From the NCBI GenBank assembly GCA_947040595.1, contig CAMRBZ010000001.1:1-50762 (forward strand): 50,762 nt of DNA, written 5' to 3'. How positions within the stretch are numbered: the first letter of the stretch is position 1; each line of letters starts with the position of its first letter. The notes under the pieces were generated by a model that saw only the letters and a list, made by a program, of their open reading frames with translations, had not been told where the DNA came from and ran no database searches. Source of the stretch: an uncultured Enterovibrio sp. Lineage in GTDB: Bacteria > Pseudomonadota > Gammaproteobacteria > Enterobacterales > Vibrionaceae. The translations under genes were made by a program, and so were the position numbers. Below are positions 4,685 to 49,157 of this stretch, piece after piece.

Positions 4685-4809
4685 TACCCAAGAGACTTGA
4701 AGATACGCGTCTGCGGCAAGCGAGTTAACCCCCTGAGCATAGATGGAGTATGTGATTGGCCTGGGCGAGAGCAGCCAACCCCCACGCAGTTTCAGAGGCG
4801 ACAGGTATA
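4685..4809 (+). repeat. ERIC-like repeat, full copy (125 bp)
   Basis: Begins TACCCAAGA and ends GGCGACAGGTATA, with central GCGGCAAGCGAGTT and GGGCGAGAGCAGCCAAC blocks shared with the copies at 8014, 42320 and 44091. The two ends are imperfectly complementary. It ends three bases before the yjfC stop codon (complement at 4813-4815) and lies in the space between the convergent sspB and yjfC genes. The layout matches the 127-bp ERIC elements of enterobacteria as I remember them; exact identity was not computed. Confidence 0.8.
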
Positions 4810-4812
4810 TCG

Positions 4813-5979
4813 TTATGCCAAAATAATATGAGGGAGGTAACGTGACATATCTTGTGTGATGAGCGACTTGTCTTCTCGAATAGAGATCCCCGCCGCTTTG
4901 TCGTTGACAAGCCAGCTGCCGATAAGGGTGTAGTTATCTCCAAATTTTGGAAGAGGATGATAGGCTTGAACAATCATGCCTTCTTCTCCGTAAGGTCCGT
5001 CAATTGACAAGGTTTCTTTTCCATTTTTAAATATCGAAATGTTTGCTCCTTCTCGAGAAAAAAGTGGTTTAACAACATATTCTTTGAGGGATTTTCGTGC
5101 AGGATCATCTGCAAAATAGGAGGCAAGCAAATTGGGGTGGTTTGGAAATAATTTCCAAAGCATAGGAAGTAACGCTTTGTTTGAAATAATACTTTTCCAC
5201 ATAGGTTCTAACCAGTTGACCTTTGCGCTGTTTAAATGCGTAGCATACTCTTCTTCGAACATAAACTCCCAAGGATAAAGCTTAAACATCCACTCGATAA
5301 GGGTGTTATTCATGTCTGTAAATTGCCCATTTGTATTAAGACCGATGTCTTCGATATACACAAAGCGGCAATCAATACCCGCTTCTTTGGCGCAATCTTC
5401 TATGTATTGTACGGTGCCGCGATCTTCTAATGTATTTTTACAACAAGCAAAATGAAGGGGGCGGTGCGGGGATTTTTCTTTGAGGGTACGAAAGCGATGA
5501 ACCAATAATTCTTGTAAGAGATTGAATTGATCTGCATCTCGACGAATTATGCCTTTGTTTACTTTATCTTCAAGCCAAAGCCATTGCCAAAAACCGGTTT
5601 CAAATACGGATGTGGGGGTGTCTGCATTATTTTCATAGAGTTTGGCTGAGCCTGTTCCGCCATAAGCGAGGTCAAGCCTTGAATACAGAGAAGGATCGCG
5701 TCTTCTCCATGAGTCTAAAATACCTTGCCAGTGCATTTCAGGAATGTGAAATCGTTTTAACCAGTTTTCATCTTGAACGACATGGTTGACCACCTCCAAA
5801 CACATTTGATGCAGCTCTTCGGTCGGAGCTTCAATGTTTTCTTCTATTTGCTTTAAGGTAAATTGGTAATAGGCCGATTCATCCCAATAAGCCTCTCCGT
5901 AAAGCGTGTGAAAATTGAATCCGTATTCTTGGGCCTGTGTTTTCCAGTTTGGACGAGGGGGGGTGTTGACTCTTAGCAT
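4813..5979 (-). CDS. yjfC: Glutathionylspermidine-synthase-like ATP-grasp protein, YjfC/YgiC type
   Basis: The 388-residue protein belongs to the glutathionylspermidine synthase-like ATP-grasp family, closest in pattern to E. coli YjfC and YgiC. Family hallmarks are [17 protein letters not shown] (about 32-48), the substrate-loop motif NNADTPTS (about 117-124), the basic and glycine-rich ATP-grasp segment [13 protein letters not shown], and the terminal [13 protein letters not shown]. Such proteins lack the amidase half of true bifunctional Gss. They are expected to ligate an amine to a carboxylate using ATP, but the physiological substrate is unknown. It is the last gene of the yjf run, separated from yjfM by 87 bases that contain a terminator-like hairpin. 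The ribosome site is poor. Confidence 0.9.
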
Positions 5980-6016
5980 GAATGAAACTCATTATCGAAA
6001 AGATCAAAAGAGAGGT

Positions 6017-6050
6017 AAAAAAACGTGGCCTGCCGAGGTATTACAGGCCA
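6017..6050 (-). terminator. Intrinsic terminator or attenuator between yjfM and yjfC
   Basis: Read on the minus strand, TGGCCTG is followed by an 11-base loop, CAGGCCA, CG, and seven T residues. The 7-bp stem is perfect. It lies downstream of yjfM and upstream of yjfC, so it should reduce or condition yjfC transcription relative to the rest of the operon. Confidence 0.75.
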
Positions 6051-6066
6051 TAAACATCCTGATGCA

Positions 6067-6666
6067 TTAACCGCCCCAGCTTTTGCTTGAAGAGCGACTC
6101 CAGCTTGATTTTGCTGCAGCTTTTGAGCCAAAGCCACCCCGTGATATTGTTTTTGTGACTGCCGGTTTTTTCTTGAATTGATCACTTGGGACGTAAACTT
6201 TCGAGCTTTTTCCTACTTTTCCATAAGAATACCCATCGGAGGAACTCCAGCCTCCATAATGGCGGCTACGAGGGTTTGTGGATGTAAAAATAGGTTGGTG
6301 ATTATATGAACGATTGTTCATCATTTGCCCAAACATGAACCCAGCCATCGCAGGCATGAACCAATTATTTTGAGAAGACTGAACGCACATTTGTTCACCA
6401 AATTCAGCGACGCAATCGGCTCTTGATTTGTATTTTGGGGCTGTACTTTCGGCTTCATTTAGGGCGTCTTGATAGGCTGTTTTACATTGTTCACTTTGTT
6501 CGGGATTGTTTTTAATGCATTCTGAGACTCCAGAATAAATATTCATTTCTTGGGCACCTTCACTGCAACCAGAAACAAACACGATGGCAGCAACCGTGAT
6601 GGAAGGCGTTGCGGGGAGCCAGCTTTTTTTCATTTGAGCAAGCTTGACGTTGCGGCTTCTTTTCAT
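6067..6666 (-). CDS. yjfM: DUF1190 lipoprotein, YjfM/YgiB family, with Gly-Gly C-terminus
   Basis: The start at 6666 (MKRSRNVKLAQMKK, 199 residues) is preferred over the longer frame because it follows AAGGGGC and matches the family N-terminus. A hydrophobic segment ends in VSGC, a lipobox, suggesting a lipid-anchored protein. The conserved DUF1190 core contains APKYKSRADCVAEFGEQMC and a Phe/Met-rich FMPAMAGFMFGQMM. The tail is Ser/Lys/Gly-rich low complexity and ends WGG. Function is unknown. In E. coli the same family sits beside YgiC or YjfC, so it is a plausible partner or substrate of the adjacent ATP-grasp protein; that link is inference. It lies 11 bases after yjfL. Confidence 0.88.
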   Translation of the reverse strand: MKRSRNVKLAQMKKSWLPATPSITVAAIVFVSGCSEGAQEMNIYSGVSECIKNNPEQSEQCKTAYQDALNEAESTAPKYKSRADCVAEFGEQMCVQSSQNNWFMPAMAGFMFGQMMNNRSYNHQPIFTSTNPRSRHYGGWSSSDGYSYGKVGKSSKVYVPSDQFKKKPAVTKTISRGGFGSKAAAKSSWSRSSSKSWGG

Positions 6667-6677
6667 GGTTTCGCCCC

Positions 6678-7094
6678 TTAGTATGTCATGCATGCAGCAT
6701 TGAGTATGCCAATGGCAATGGACATCGACCCCATGACGATACCTGCAGGAATTTCATTGTTTTGGATACGCTCGACCAGTTTTGGCATAAAACCAAAGCG
6801 CATGATAAAAAAGGCAAGAATTTGAGCAACAAGGGCAACAACCGCCCAAATACCAAAATCCAATAAATTAACCGAATTTTTTGCTGCGCTGGCGATTGCA
6901 AGGCTGTAACCGATAAAGGCGCCAGATAAAGTAATGGCCGCTGCAATGTTGTTTTCTTCTTTGAGCAATTTCCACTCATCGTAGGGCGTAACGCGGATAT
7001 AGACGAATTTGAAAATGATCAAAAATAAAATGGATAAACCAAGGTAAAGGGCAAATGAGCCAAGGTTTTCCAGCGAAAGTAGCAATTGAGACAT
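6678..7094 (-). CDS. yjfL: DUF350 membrane protein, YjfL family
   Basis: A small, very hydrophobic protein of 138 residues with about four membrane helices (roughly 13-32, 50-70, 80-100, 115-135), as in the DUF350 family. A conserved-looking polar turn, TPYDEWKLLKEENN, lies between the first two helices. Function is not established. DUF350 proteins repeatedly occur with PspA-like, DUF2491 and glutathionylspermidine-synthase-like genes, which is the arrangement here. It lies 33 bases after yjfK and 11 before yjfM, so it is cotranscribed with both. Confidence 0.9.
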   Translation of the reverse strand: MSQLLLSLENLGSFALYLGLSILFLIIFKFVYIRVTPYDEWKLLKEENNIAAAITLSGAFIGYSLAIASAAKNSVNLLDFGIWAVVALVAQILAFFIMRFGFMPKLVERIQNNEIPAGIVMGSMSIAIGILNAACMTY

Positions 7095-7127
7095 AACTTT
7101 TCCTTATCTAAAAAGAGGGACCACAGC

Positions 7128-7766
7128 TTATCCTGCTACGGTAAAGTCTGTGGGTGAGAGTGCAACACCGGAACTTATCACAAGGCTTCGTTCCGGCTTC
7201 TGATCTTGGATGGCTTCTTCTGCGCAAATGAGTAAAGACTCAAAAACATCTTCTCCTGCTTGGCGTTCATACACCATGACAAACTGATCGGTTGTCGAGG
7301 TACTTTCATCTTCTGCCCAAGTTATTTCTTTCATTGCAACAGGTTGGGTGTTATCCCACACTTTTTCGTAAGTAAAACCGGACAAGCCCCAAACGGGTTT
7401 TACAATTTCGTTGCTGAGGCAAGCATTCCATTGGGCCTCTGTATCAATGGGTTTTGTTTCGTAAAAATAAAACAGTTTGACTTCGGTGACGTCTGCATCG
7501 GATGAACCGGATTGCAATACTTGTATAAAACCATCGTCATCGGTATAAAAGCGCAATAAGCGTGTTTGTGCGTCCAGTTTGACTTCGCCTACGGCTTTGA
7601 TGATTTGCGTGCGAGTGGCTTTTTCTATAACTAATAAGGGTTCCATTAAACGGAATTTTAAGTCATCAAGCTCTATTGCTCCGCCTAATCTTAAACCTAA
7701 GACTTCAGGTGGCTTGGGTTTTTCAGGTGTGGGCGCTTGCATTTTTTTCTTTAGCCAATCGAACAT
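7128..7766 (-). CDS. yjfK: DUF2491 family protein, YjfK type
   Basis: The 212-residue protein begins MFDWLKKKM and continues PPEVLGLRLGGAIELDDLKFRL, the recognisable DUF2491 opening, and has no signal peptide or membrane segment. It is probably a cytoplasmic or peripheral membrane protein of unknown function. Its place between the PspA-like gene and the DUF350 gene matches the E. coli yjfJ-yjfK-yjfL order. A 540-base gap holding ERIC-like repeats separates it from yjfJ upstream. Confidence 0.85.
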   Translation of the reverse strand: MFDWLKKKMQAPTPEKPKPPEVLGLRLGGAIELDDLKFRLMEPLLVIEKATRTQIIKAVGEVKLDAQTRLLRFYTDDDGFIQVLQSGSSDADVTEVKLFYFYETKPIDTEAQWNACLSNEIVKPVWGLSGFTYEKVWDNTQPVAMKEITWAEDESTSTTDQFVMVYERQAGEDVFESLLICAEEAIQDQKPERSLVISSGVALSPTDFTVAG

Positions 7767-7820
7767 ACCAAACTCCTCTCTTTCTTTTTTTTTACTTGTT
7801 GCTTTTCAATCCAGCTGAAT

Positions 7821-7907
7821 TAGCCGCGCTCTTCGCCCAATAACATCGTCCGCTTATGCTCAGGGCTTTTTTTCCGCCTCAGGGCATCTTCAAATATCGT
7901 GGGTATA
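7821..7907 (-). repeat. Decayed ERIC-like repeat fragment
   Basis: Contains a decayed version of the inner block (CGCTCTTCGCCCAAT), then GCTTATGCTCAGGGC, CATCTTCAAATATCGTGGGTATA. These align in order with the copy at 8014-8140 but with many changes and no intact outer end on the left. Same orientation as the 8014 copy. Confidence 0.55.
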
Positions 7908-8013
7908 TGCTAGTAAATCATGGCATTAAGATCCTGTTGAAAGATTGCTTTTGCTCATAATTTAAAAAATACATTCAAGTGGTGAATGAATTGAGTGTTG
8001 GGTTTTAGGGTGG

Positions 8014-8140
8014 TATACCCGTCGCCTTTGAAACTGCGTGGGTGTTGGCTGCTCTCGCTCAGGCCAATCACAGAGTCGATCTATGTTCAGGGCCTTCACT
8101 CGTTTGCTGCCTACACGCATTTTCAATGGTCTTGGGTATC
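8014..8140 (-). repeat. ERIC-like repeat, full copy (127 bp) inside the yjf operon
   Basis: Starts TATACCCGTCGCCTTTGAAA and ends CTTGGGTATC, the reverse orientation of the 4685 copy. All central blocks are present (GCTGCTCTCGCTCAGGCCAA, CTTCACTCGTTTGCTGCC). It lies between yjfK and yjfJ, so it is transcribed if the operon is read as one unit. An imperfect palindrome in an mRNA can act as a processing or stability site. Confidence 0.82.
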
Positions 8141-8204
8141 TCTATTTTAAGGATTTTTTTATCCGTCATTTTTGAATATGCAGGTTTTTTGAGGGGATTG
8201 TCCC

Positions 8205-8269
8205 CACTCACATCATTTTTAGATGTTCATGGGGTCCGCTTATTTGCATTTTCAAGTGTCTTTAGGATA
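8205..8269 (-). repeat. Possible second decayed ERIC-like fragment
   Basis: GATGTTCATGGGGTCCGCTT followed by TTGCATTTTCAAGTGTCTTTAGGATA resembles the distal half of the 8014 copy. The similarity is short and partly AT-rich, so this is tentative. Confidence 0.35.
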
Positions 8270-8306
8270 AAAAACAATACAAGATATTGTTTTTTGATGG
8301 TTCAGG

Positions 8307-8996
8307 TTATTTTTTACCTAAAATTCGAGCCAGTTCATCTTCTGCAGAGGCTCCTTGGCCTCCTGTTATCCCTGCGTCAATGAGTTTTTTATCAAGGCTA
8401 CTTCCTGATTGCTCTTGGTCGAGTTCCGCTGCGGCTTCAAATTGAGCTTGGCGTTCTTGTTGGCGTGTTTTGATCCGCTCGAGGGATTCCACTGCGGTGT
8501 GCATTTTCGCGCTTGCCCCAAGGTTGGTGCTTGAAACTGCCGCCTGGGCTTTTTGGACTGATTCGTTGGCTTTAACTACATCCACTTGTTGCTCTAGTTG
8601 ACGCAGTTTATCTTTGGCTTGAGCAATGTTGGTTTTCAGGGTGCTTTCTGATTGAGCAAATTGTTGCATATAGGTACTTTCTGCTTTTTGTTCAGCGCGA
8701 AGGGCTGAAACACGGCTGGCACATTCTAAGGCTAGTTCTTGTTGGCCTTTTTCCATTGCGCCTCGTGCATGCGCCTCATATTCTGCAATGCCATTTTCAA
8801 AGCCAGCCACTTTTTGTGCCGCCAGTTTGCGTTTGGCTATGATACCAACCAAGGCCGTGTCTGAACGGCGAAGTTCTTCTTTAGCGTCACGGATTTCTTG
8901 ATCCAAGATACGCAAAGCCTGATTGTCAGCAACGGCTTCTGCTGCTTCTGTCGCACCACCTTTAATGGCGGTAAATAATTTCTTCCAAATGCTCAT
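8307..8996 (-). CDS. yjfJ: PspA/IM30-family protein, YjfJ type
   Basis: The 229-residue protein is nearly all alpha-helical coiled coil, starting MSIWKKLFTAIKGGATEAAEAV. The first residues can form the amphipathic helix used by PspA/Vipp1 (ESCRT-III-like) proteins to bind membranes. It then has long heptad-rich stretches (about 30-150), a Gln/Glu/Ala-rich region (to about 195) and a short C-terminal segment AEDELARILGKK. No pspB/pspC/pspF genes are nearby, so this is the YjfJ branch rather than the classical phage-shock operon. Likely role is membrane stabilisation or remodelling. It lies 11 bases after yjfI. Confidence 0.88.
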   Translation of the reverse strand: MSIWKKLFTAIKGGATEAAEAVADNQALRILDQEIRDAKEELRRSDTALVGIIAKRKLAAQKVAGFENGIAEYEAHARGAMEKGQQELALECASRVSALRAEQKAESTYMQQFAQSESTLKTNIAQAKDKLRQLEQQVDVVKANESVQKAQAAVSSTNLGASAKMHTAVESLERIKTRQQERQAQFEAAAELDQEQSGSSLDKKLIDAGITGGQGASAEDELARILGKK

Positions 8997-9007
8997 TACA
9001 GGGTTCC

Positions 9008-9394
9008 TTATAGATAGTCTTGGTACAGCTCAAGAAAAGCTTCGATGTTACGAAATAAAGTGGCAACTTCAATGACCACAGTTTCGGCTTTAGATTGTGA
9101 CGAAAGAGAGCCAAATGCGGCGTAGTAACTCTCGCCGTTTATTTCGTTGATGCAAAGGGTGCTGAGAGGAAACAGCTTATGGGTGCGTAATATCGTGTCA
9201 TTTAGGGCTGAAACGTCTTTCACTGCTTTTTGAGGAAAAAGTAATGCTTCGACAAGTATTTGTTCTCCCGCAACGGCTAAAAAGGCTTCGATGCCGTCTT
9301 CATTTTTTAAGCACAATGTTTCTTGAGTTTGAGTGACAGTCCAGCCATCATGCTTTGTCAAGAGGGTATTGAGATCTTTCAGTTGCCAAGTCAT
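9008..9394 (-). CDS. yjfI: DUF2170 protein, YjfI family
   Basis: The 128-residue soluble protein has the DUF2170 pattern (WQLKDLNTLL ... ETLCLKNEDGIEAFLAVAGEQILVEALLFP ... LNDTILRTHKLFPLST). No signal peptide or membrane segment is seen. Function is unknown; in E. coli it is the first gene of yjfIJKLMC, and here it is likewise the promoter-proximal gene. A TATAAT box lies about 105 bases upstream. The short gap to yjfJ implies cotranscription. Confidence 0.85.
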   Translation of the reverse strand: MTWQLKDLNTLLTKHDGWTVTQTQETLCLKNEDGIEAFLAVAGEQILVEALLFPQKAVKDVSALNDTILRTHKLFPLSTLCINEINGESYYAAFGSLSSQSKAETVVIEVATLFRNIEAFLELYQDYL

Positions 9395-9691: not shown

Positions 9692-10222
9692 TTAGTTGAT
9701 ATACCGGAAACCTTTGATGACTTGTTTGACGCCTTTTATATTTCTAGTAATTTCAGCCGCTTGTGTGGCTTGTTCTTTTGTTAGGTAACCCAATAAAAAC
9801 ACTTCGCTGTCTTCTGTGATGACTTTGATGTTGGCCTCACGGAGTTTTTTACTGGCAATTAAGGCGCTTTTTACTTTGGTGGTCAACCAAGTATCTTGAC
9901 TGACGACAGAAAGCGAAACGGGAGCTTGGATTCGAATTTGATCGTAAATCTCTTTGACTCCTTTTATTTCTTTTATCTTTTCTAGGATGTTGTTTTTGAT
10001 TTCATCGGTTTGGGCTTGACCAATAAGCAATAAGTGACCTTCGTAAGAGGCGGCATTGATCCTTGATTTTGATTGAAAAGCGGGCTTATTGACTTTGCTT
10101 GCGACATCAATGAGGATTTGTCGGTCTCGCCATTCTGATGCCGTATCGCGAGAATCTTGGACATCAAGAACGGCGCAGGCGCTCAGACTCAAGGTGAGGG
10201 AAAAGAGAAGCGCCTTTTTCAT
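9692..10222 (-). CDS. dolP: Outer-membrane dual-BON lipoprotein DolP (YraP)
   Basis: The 176-residue protein has a lipoprotein signal with lipobox LSAC at about residues 13-16, then two BON domains of about 65-70 residues each (about 37-105 and 113-176). Core motifs are INAASYEGHLLLIGQ in the first and VFLLGYLTKEQATQAAEI in the second. DolP binds anionic phospholipid at the outer membrane and supports envelope integrity and septal amidase activation. It is last in lpoA-yraN-diaA-dolP, the E. coli order, and begins two bases after diaA. Confidence 0.9.
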   Translation of the reverse strand: MKKALLFSLTLSLSACAVLDVQDSRDTASEWRDRQILIDVASKVNKPAFQSKSRINAASYEGHLLLIGQAQTDEIKNNILEKIKEIKGVKEIYDQIRIQAPVSLSVVSQDTWLTTKVKSALIASKKLREANIKVITEDSEVFLLGYLTKEQATQAAEITRNIKGVKQVIKGFRYIN

Positions 10223-10224
10223 TT

Positions 10225-10818
<594 letters not shown>

Positions 10819-42319: not shown

Positions 42320-42443
42320 TTACCCGTCGCCTTTGTACCTGCGTGAAGGTTGGCTACGCTCATTCAATTCAATCACAGAGTCCATCTGTGCTCAGGGGCT
42401 TCACTCACTTGCCAGGCGCGCAACTATCAAGTGTCTTGGGTAT
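42320..42443 (-). repeat. ERIC-like repeat, near-full copy (about 124 bp)
   Basis: Starts TACCCGTCGCCTTTGTACC and ends AAGTGTCTTGGGTATT. The middle CAATCACAGAGTCCATCTGT and CAGGGGCTTCACTCACTTGC match the 8014 copy, with local changes in the GGCTACGCTCATTC block. Lies about 140 bases before the GGDEF gene, in reverse orientation to the copy on its other side (44091). Confidence 0.78.
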
Positions 42444-44090: not shown

Positions 44091-44216
44091 TATACCCAAG
44101 ACACTTGAAGATGCGCGCCTGCGGCAAACGAGTGAAGGATCTGAGCATAAATCGACTATCTGATTGGCTTTAGCTAGAGCAGGCAATCCCCACGCAGTTT
44201 CAATGGAGACGGTTTA
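44091..44216 (+). repeat. ERIC-like repeat, full copy (126 bp)
   Basis: Starts TATACCCAAGACACTTGAAG and ends CAATGGAGACGGTTTA, in the same orientation as the 4685 copy, with GCGGCAAACGAGTGAAGG and TAGAGCAGGCAATCCCCACG in the middle. The right end has drifted (GGTTTA in place of GGTATA). Confidence 0.82.
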
Positions 44217-47519: not shown

Positions 47520-49157
47520 ATGACCATTGAAATTAAAGTGCCTGATATAGGTTCGGATGAGGTTGAAGTGACCGAAATCTTTGTGAATGTTGGGGATCAT
47601 GTTGCAGAAGATCAGTCCCTGATCACGGTTGAAGGTGATAAAGCCTCTATGGAAGTGCCTGCTTCACAAGCGGGTATTGTTAAGGAAATTCTTATTAAGC
47701 AAGGGGAAACCGTTTCAACAGGGTCCCTCATTATGCTTTTTGAATCGCAAACTCAGACGGCTCCTGCTTCAAAAAGTGTGGCCCCTTCTGTTACAGAAGC
47801 CGCGTCAACCTCTGTTACAGAAGCCGCGTCAACCTCTGTAACAGAGCCTACTTCTTCGTCTGTCGGCCTGAAAGATGTTTTGATCCCAGATATTGGTGAT
47901 GATGAAGTTGAAGTGACAGAAATCATGGTGGCCGTCGGAGATCTCGTTGAAGAAGATCAATCTTTAATGACCGTTGAAGGTGATAAGGCATCCATGGAAG
48001 TCCCTGCGCCATTTTCGGGTCTTTTAAAAGAAATTAAAGTTCAAACAGGCGATAAAGTTTCTACGGGTTCTTTTATCATGGTTTTTGAAGTTGCGCAGAC
48101 GGCTTCTACACCTGTCGCTGTGTTACCACAAGAAACGGTGAAAGTTTCAACGCCAGAAAAAGCACCAGAAAAACCTTCTTCGGCAGAACTGACGGCGCCT
48201 GTCATTCCAGCGAACGAGCTGATTGAAAACAGTGAATATACGCATGCATCGCCTGTTGTGCGTCGACTTGCCCGTGAGTTCGGTGTTGATTTATCGAAAG
48301 TGAAAAGCACGGGTCCTAAAAGTCGAATTTTAAAAGAAGACGTTCAAAACTATGTAAAAGAAGCCCTTAACGCTCTGGCATCTTCTGGGGGGGCTAAGGG
48401 CGAGGGAGCTGGTTTGGGTTTATTGCCTTGGCCAAAAGTGGATTTTAATAAATTTGGTGAAACTGAACTCAGACCTCTTTCTCGCATTAAAAAGATCTCG
48501 GGCGCTAATTTGCACCGTAATTGGGTTATGATCCCTCATGTAACTCAATGGGATAACGCGGATATCACTGAGCTTGAAGCCTTTCGTCAAGAACAAAATG
48601 CGACTGAAGCCAAAAATGCAACAGGCATTAAAATTACCCCTTTGGTTTTTATCATTAAAGCCGTCGCAAAGGCGCTCGATGCGTTTCCTTCCTTTAACGC
48701 TTCCTTGTCAGATGATGGCGAAAGCTTGATTTTGAAAAAATACATCAATATCGGTGTGGCTGTTGATACGCCTAATGGCCTTGTGGTTCCTGTCTTTAAA
48801 GATGTGAATAAAAAAGGAATTTACACACTTTCTGAAGAGTTGCTCTTGGTTTCGAAGAAAGCGCGAGAAGGAAAATTAACGGCTTCAGATATGCAAGGCG
48901 GTTGCTTCACGATTTCGAGCTTAGGCGGCATTGGCGGCACTGCATTTACCCCGATTGTTAATGCGCCTGAGGTGGCAATTTTAGGTGTTTCGAAGTCTGA
49001 AATGAAACCCGTGTGGAATGGGAAAGAGTTCCTTCCACGCTTGTTGTTACCTTTGTCATTGTCTTACGATCATCGTGTGATCGATGGTGCTGAGGGGGCT
49101 CGTTTTATCACTTATCTAAATGGGTGTTTGACTGATATTCGCCGTTTAGTATTGTAA
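47520..49157 (+). CDS. aceF: Dihydrolipoamide acetyltransferase (PDH E2) with two lipoyl domains
   Basis: Core of the pyruvate dehydrogenase complex, moving acetyl groups from lipoate to CoA. The 545 residues hold lipoyl domain 1 (about 2-76, lipoylated Lys41 in EGDKASME), a Ser/Thr/Ala/Glu linker built from an eight-residue repeat (about 90-114), lipoyl domain 2 (about 117-192, Lys156), an Ala/Pro linker, the E1/E3-binding domain (about 240-280, [16 protein letters not shown]) and the catalytic domain ending in [16 protein letters not shown]. coli AceF has three lipoyl domains, so this one is shorter. It lies 13 bases after aceE. Confidence 0.97.
47787..47858 (+). repeat. 24-bp tandem repeat in the aceF linker
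   Basis: Two identical 24-base units (47787-47810 and 47811-47834, starting TCTGTTACAGAAGCC) and a diverged third (47835-47858). In protein they read S-V-T-E-A-A-S-T repeated, in the flexible linker between the lipoyl domains. The unit length keeps frame, so copy-number change would only lengthen or shorten the linker. Confidence 0.85.

Follow-up and report, generated by a model that had tools for sequence, protein, structure and literature searches.

A conserved C-terminal tag on DUF1190 lipoproteins points to a probable dedicated ligase-substrate pair in an Enterovibrio yjf-type operon

The window analyzed here, a 50,762-nucleotide stretch of DNA from an uncultured Enterovibrio sp. (GenBank assembly GCA_947040595.1, contig CAMRBZ010000001.1), carries on its minus strand, at positions 4813-9394, an operon of six genes that ends with a DUF1190 lipoprotein and an ATP-grasp ligase of the YgiC/YjfC family. 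Comparative analysis of these two genes leads us to propose that the operon probably encodes a dedicated ligase together with its own substrate, and that the ligase joins spermidine or a related amine to the C-terminus of the lipoprotein. The gene cluster and the enzyme class are already known; the novelty is the substrate and its tag.

The lipoprotein and its ligase

The features that carry this proposal are as follows.

4813..5979, minus strand: ATP-grasp ligase of the YgiC/YjfC family, 388 amino acids, catalytic residues intact (PF03738 GSP_synth, 1.7e-157)
6067..6666, minus strand: DUF1190 envelope lipoprotein, 199 amino acids, presumed substrate (PF06693, 5e-49)
6565..6576, minus strand: lipobox V-S-G-C, residues 31-34 of the lipoprotein
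6127..6141, minus strand: RGGFG tag motif, residues 176-180, presumed recognition element for the ligase
6070..6075, minus strand: C-terminal Gly-Gly, residues 198-199, presumed ligation site

The start of the lipoprotein is best placed at 6666 (MKRSRN...), rather than at 6693, where the longer open reading frame begins, because the MKR start aligns across relatives. The protein matches PF06693 above the cut-off and has the lipobox and the four cysteines of DUF1190 lipoproteins (YgiB/YjfM); the NCBIfam model PRK11653 matches it just below the model cut-off. In an alignment of 46 DUF1190 proteins (A2), K2, C34 of the lipobox, C50, C61, C85, C94, P77, P105, R176, G178, F179, G180 and G198 are invariant, G199 is conserved in at least 90%, and the N-terminal region is long, basic and conserved. 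The C-terminus reads ...SRGGFGSKAAAKSSWSRSSSKSWGG; the Ser/Gly-rich tail ending in W-G-G that an earlier note on this DNA had described, with the ligase gene next to it, is indeed there (SWGG). In the predicted structure, residues ~38-170 are folded with high confidence and residues 188-199 have a predicted local distance difference test score (pLDDT) below 50, a model in which a disordered tail follows the folded core. We also considered a beta-grasp (ubiquitin-like) fold for the predicted model, which gave no Foldseek match at E <0.001 and a best VIA-align Z of 2.9. Weak sequence matches of DUF1190 to pacsin and another chain were judged to be due to chance.

The best match of the ligase among solved structures is YgiC (PDB 7uk8, 2e-164, 550 bits), which is nearer than YjfC (PDB 7uk6, 7e-140, 470 bits). 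The GSP_synth domain is full-length, as in YgiC and YjfC, with profile positions 1-371 spanning residues 12-386 of 388; it is the sole Pfam match, the fused amidase domain is absent, and the architecture is not of the GspSA type. Eight residues (R101, D103, E116, N118, K268, K304, R309 and R368) are invariant across 34 relatives and align with R316, D318, E330, N332, K498, K533, R538 and R598 of Escherichia coli GspSA, where they are catalytic. Judged by this alignment, the ligase retains the catalytic residues of its family; the GspSA stretch ADSAS (333-337) is ADTPT in the Enterovibrio enzyme. No export signal is evident in the ligase. In RefSeq both YgiC and YjfC of E. coli are named peptide--spermidine ligases, an activity credited to Pederick et al. 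2023 in the passages of PMC10948618 and PMC12568646 that cite that work. With such annotations in place and the structures solved, the view of the earlier note that agreed functions are lacking for all of the operon's products no longer holds.

The tag across Pseudomonadota

We searched 398 Pseudomonadota genomes, as well as 385 from the class to which genome G012 belongs, with PF06693 and PF03738, and further ligase relatives were taken from 80 named loci; the scope of the survey is Pseudomonadota. Some partners in our earlier counts had been chosen by the tag or by a model that included the tail; the main numbers therefore come from a hidden Markov model of the DUF1190 core, built without signal peptide and tail. 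This model found 198 distinct DUF1190 proteins, 169 of them encoded directly upstream of a ligase gene. Each of these 169 has a GGFG-type motif close to its C-terminus, including two that read NAGFG and AGGFG and escaped the regular expression, and 130 end in Gly-Gly; the last residue is glycine in 131, serine in 30, threonine in six and alanine in two. RGGFG lies ~17 residues (range 7-55) before the end and is followed by the small terminal residue. Another 14 DUF1190 proteins are encoded elsewhere in the ligase locus, and 13 of these end in Gly-Gly. The two E. coli proteins end in RSMGG (YgiB) and GHWGG (YjfM).

When ligases were grouped into lineages at 70% identity, 66 of 98 lineages had partners ending in Gly-Gly versus 5.9 expected from tail shuffling, an enrichment of ~11-fold; at 60% identity the corresponding values were 33 of 53 versus 3.6. 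Tail shuffling thus rejects low-complexity chance as the source of the terminal Gly-Gly. The 100% motif rate in this lineage set is not an independent measurement, since its partners were chosen partly by the tag or by the tail-including model.

The earlier note had suggested that the ligase could modify the C-terminus of the lipoprotein, and a lack of conservation of the terminal Gly-Gly beside ligase genes had been set beforehand as a result that would refute it. The suggestion passes this test with a correction: Gly-Gly is far more frequent than expected, but it is not strict, and the constant element is RGGFG plus a small last residue. The suggestion thereby gains strong comparative support, with a conserved element that extends beyond the two final residues.

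Several artefacts were considered. Mere linkage of the two genes was rejected, as the tag is retained by lipoproteins whose gene is divergent from the ligase gene, downstream of it or not linked to it (L197, L198, L037-L047, L175, L176); in Photobacterium the two genes lie apart and the lipoprotein still ends in WGG. A role of the glycine codons as the Shine-Dalgarno sequence of the ligase gene was rejected as well, given that GAGG is absent from the codons in 108 of the 130 Gly-Gly ends and that divergent and unlinked copies keep Gly-Gly. An open reading frame with tag plus Gly-Gly was found in none of 12 glutathione-type synthetase loci. The motif is also absent from the DUF1190 proteins of three genomes in which no ligase was found (G087, G369 and G635) and from remote DUF1190 paralogues in genomes G187 and G382. 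The tagged copies with no ligase in view are at contig ends (L202, L208, L219), in L244 the ligase is cut off by the contig end, and in L197, L198, L216, L027 and L030 the ligase is elsewhere in the same genome.

In Burkholderia-like (L072-L074) and Pseudomonas-like (L076-L079) loci, labels that are guesses from gene content, and in loci of other genomes (L083, L085, L087, L180, L252-L254), the ligase neighbor is anchored and its DUF1190 core is reduced or gone, with the tag kept. These neighbors were noticed partly through the tag and are illustrations rather than independent statistics.

A profile of the tail-only alignment (A3) was too low in complexity, so a codon pattern was used for the genome-wide search for tags. 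Across ten genomes, matches to the strict RGGFG...GG-stop pattern were confined to the known partner, save for one Gly-rich stretch in G289. This second RGGFG...GG-stop (G289:C68:97109-97183) is in a Gly-rich frame away from the ligase and may be chance or a second substrate.

A proposed reaction and its alternatives

GspSA activates a C-terminal glycine carboxylate and then ligates it to spermidine. The Enterovibrio ligase would dock on RGGFG and use ATP to activate the C-terminal carboxylate of the lipoprotein as an acyl phosphate, which would then react with a primary amine of spermidine or of a similar polyamine, in the way that GspSA treats the C-terminal glycine of glutathione. We favor such a C-terminal spermidine amide because the tail is predicted to be disordered, the catalytic residues are intact, the relatives have the reported activity and the C-terminus is constrained. 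The lipobox and the four invariant cysteines point to the envelope, and an export signal is not evident in the ligase. The reaction would therefore most likely take place in the cytoplasm, either ahead of export or while it is under way; the long, basic and conserved N-terminal region of the lipoprotein could, as a conjecture, delay export. The resulting protein would be anchored in the envelope and carry a cationic cap at its C-terminus.

Several points weigh against this proposal. Modification of the lipoprotein is inferred from comparison of sequences. Terminal Gly-Gly is not universal, and many alphaproteobacterial partners end in GS, SS, AT or AS: among 48 ligase-linked proteins of the alphaproteobacterial sample, 20 end in GG, 14 in GS, five in AT and three in SS. 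The control set of DUF1190 proteins lacking the motif in genomes where no ligase was found is small (G087, G369 and G635). The mature tail would be outside the cytoplasm, away from ATP, so modification would have to come before export, a timing that is assumed; spermidine is likewise a presumed acceptor in Enterovibrio sp.

It is unlikely, though it deserves consideration, that the tail serves in docking or regulation, with the C-terminus lodged in the active site so as to hold or inhibit the ligase, whose real product would be a small peptide-spermidine conjugate. RGGFG varies less than the terminal residue does, just as a docking motif would, and the E. coli enzymes take peptides in vitro, as stated in the part of PMC12568646 that cites Pederick 2023. 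However, docking has no need of a free small C-terminal residue, yet every one of the 169 proteins ends in G, S, T or A, mostly as Gly-Gly; furthermore, no gene for a small peptide accompanies the pair with any consistency, and just two genes make up the minimal module.

We give a rather low probability to ligation of the lipoprotein C-terminus to some other amine (an amino acid, an amino lipid or a cell-wall or protein amine), in which case the tag would anchor or cross-link. The comparative data constrain the carboxylate side only, and ATP-grasp ligases take varied amines, as family knowledge and the consulted part of PMC12568646 indicate; on the other side stand the annotation of both E. 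coli enzymes as peptide--spermidine ligases and the spermidine-type amines used by GspSA and trypanothione synthetase, the relatives in fold whose substrates are known.

That the tail is generic low complexity, or something that lipoproteins need for their export or assembly, with no relation to the ligase, is very improbable: the tails are rich in Ser, Gly and Arg and the motif occurs in some DUF1190 copies on contigs without a ligase, but those contigs stop where the ligase would be or the genome has it elsewhere, Gly-Gly exceeds composition by the factor given above, the genomes in which no ligase was found have DUF1190 without the tag, and reduced neighbors that share little beyond anchor and tag keep it.

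Taking C-terminal ligation of a polyamine as the preferred reading, we see about an even chance that it holds as a one-enzyme, one-substrate conjugation system in many Pseudomonadota, in which an RGGFG...G/S tag would be read, a spermidine cap added before export, and the tethered polyamine would act at the membrane, for example on a linked K+ channel, DUF350 or anionic envelope polymers.

The operon and related systems

The remaining features of the operon are listed below.

6678..7094, minus strand: DUF350 membrane protein, YjfL-like (PF03994, 8e-38)
7128..7766, minus strand: DUF2491 protein, YjfK-like (PF10679, 6e-68)
8014..8139, no strand assigned: ERIC-like 126-bp repeat, within the 540 bp that separate the DUF2491 and PspA-like genes
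8307..8996, minus strand: PspA/IM30-family protein, YjfJ-like (PF04012 PspA_IM30, 3e-43)
9008..9394, minus strand: DUF2170 protein, YjfI/BacA-like (PF09938, 5e-37; partial match to NCBIfam BacA)

All six open reading frames matched their Pfam families far above the cut-offs, so that the gene families, places and strand named in the earlier note stand, and so does the order that it had likened to E. coli, which is that of yjfI-J-K-L-M-C in strain K-12. Since the ligase is nearer to YgiC and the lipoprotein comes close to the PRK11653 cut-off, the locus combines a yjf-type gene order with ygi-type proteins. The minimal module is lipoprotein plus ligase, as in E. coli ygiBC, and the PspA-like, DUF2170, DUF2491 and DUF350 genes are optional to it. 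In L070 (6789-8338) and L071, from two genomes that belong to the same taxonomic order as the window, genes for a HAD hydrolase, a DUF2251 protein and a PIN-domain protein precede the tagged lipoprotein and the ligase and replace the yjf set.

At the operon position of the repeat, L092, L115, L154 and other relatives have a K+ channel gene (Ion_trans_2 plus TrkA_N); a K+ channel gene with an intracellular sensing domain is absent from the Enterovibrio operon and from E. coli yjf. The ~126-bp interspersed repeat, presumably akin to enterobacterial ERIC, has copies in the window at 8014-8139, 4685-4809, 44092-44212, 42321-42412 and 1-30, and genome-wide it was found in 51 places among the matches listed, with 741 first-look candidates. 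Directly upstream of the operon and on the same strand is a gene for a putative BON-domain lipoprotein (9692-10222), adjoined by a gene (10225-10815) that, read by eye, may be phosphoheptose isomerase-like. Elsewhere in the window, 47541-48089 holds two direct copies of ~204 nucleotides each, with 72% identity and a spacing of 345 nucleotides.

The closest known system is that of E. coli YgiC/YjfC with YgiB/YjfM, which has the same ligase family, the same lipoprotein neighbor, partners that both end in Gly-Gly and, in yjf, identical gene order; unlike E. coli, Enterovibrio has a YgiC-like ligase in its yjf-type operon. In the literature found, which did not extend to Pederick 2023, Sui 2012 and Li 2019 themselves, no C-terminal tag or natural protein substrate of YgiC/YjfC is named. 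GspSA and trypanothione synthetase have the ATP-grasp family and the catalytic residues in common with the Enterovibrio ligase; unlike GspSA, the latter has no amidase domain, and GspSA-type loci have no tagged partner.

The searched parts of PMC11237479 describe an operon type with PspA-like, DUF2170 (CesT/Tir-like), DUF350, DUF1190, DUF2491, ligase and K+ channel genes, the third CesT/Tir-PspA group, and tie it to polyamines and membrane dynamics. The Enterovibrio operon has the DUF2170-PspA dyad, DUF2491, DUF350, DUF1190 and the ATP-grasp ligase of that group; it differs in having no K+ channel, and a C-terminal tag is not described in those parts. For the Pseudomonas aeruginosa DUF2170 protein BacA a crystal structure and biofilm phenotypes have been reported (PMC10948618), and its likeness to CesT/Tir-type chaperones is noted in passages of PMC10948618 and PMC11237479. 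These recurrent operon partners suggest membrane stress or ion homeostasis; more tentatively, the cationic cap might serve envelope or membrane-stress physiology together with the PspA-like, DUF2170 chaperone-like and DUF350 proteins and, in relatives, the K+ channel.

A parallel comes from eukaryotic-type modifiers: the C-terminal Gly-Gly of SUMO and ubiquitin is conjugated to spermidine by E1 and E2 (PMC12270671, reported 2025, where C-terminal spermidine is assigned a mass shift of +127.147 Da). By analogy, the Enterovibrio system would also use ATP to join a protein C-terminal Gly-Gly to one of the primary amines of spermidine, whereas it would do so with one ATP-grasp enzyme and a DUF1190 lipoprotein in place of E1/E2 and ubiquitin-fold proteins.

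The comparative result proposes a natural substrate for YgiC/YjfC and, on that substrate, both a recognition motif and a site of ligation; it can be put to the test in E. coli K-12. Should it hold, it would represent a dedicated polyamine modification of a bacterial protein C-terminus, a simpler counterpart to the SUMO- and ubiquitin-spermidine conjugates, and one that would be linked to envelope stress and possibly to K+ channels.

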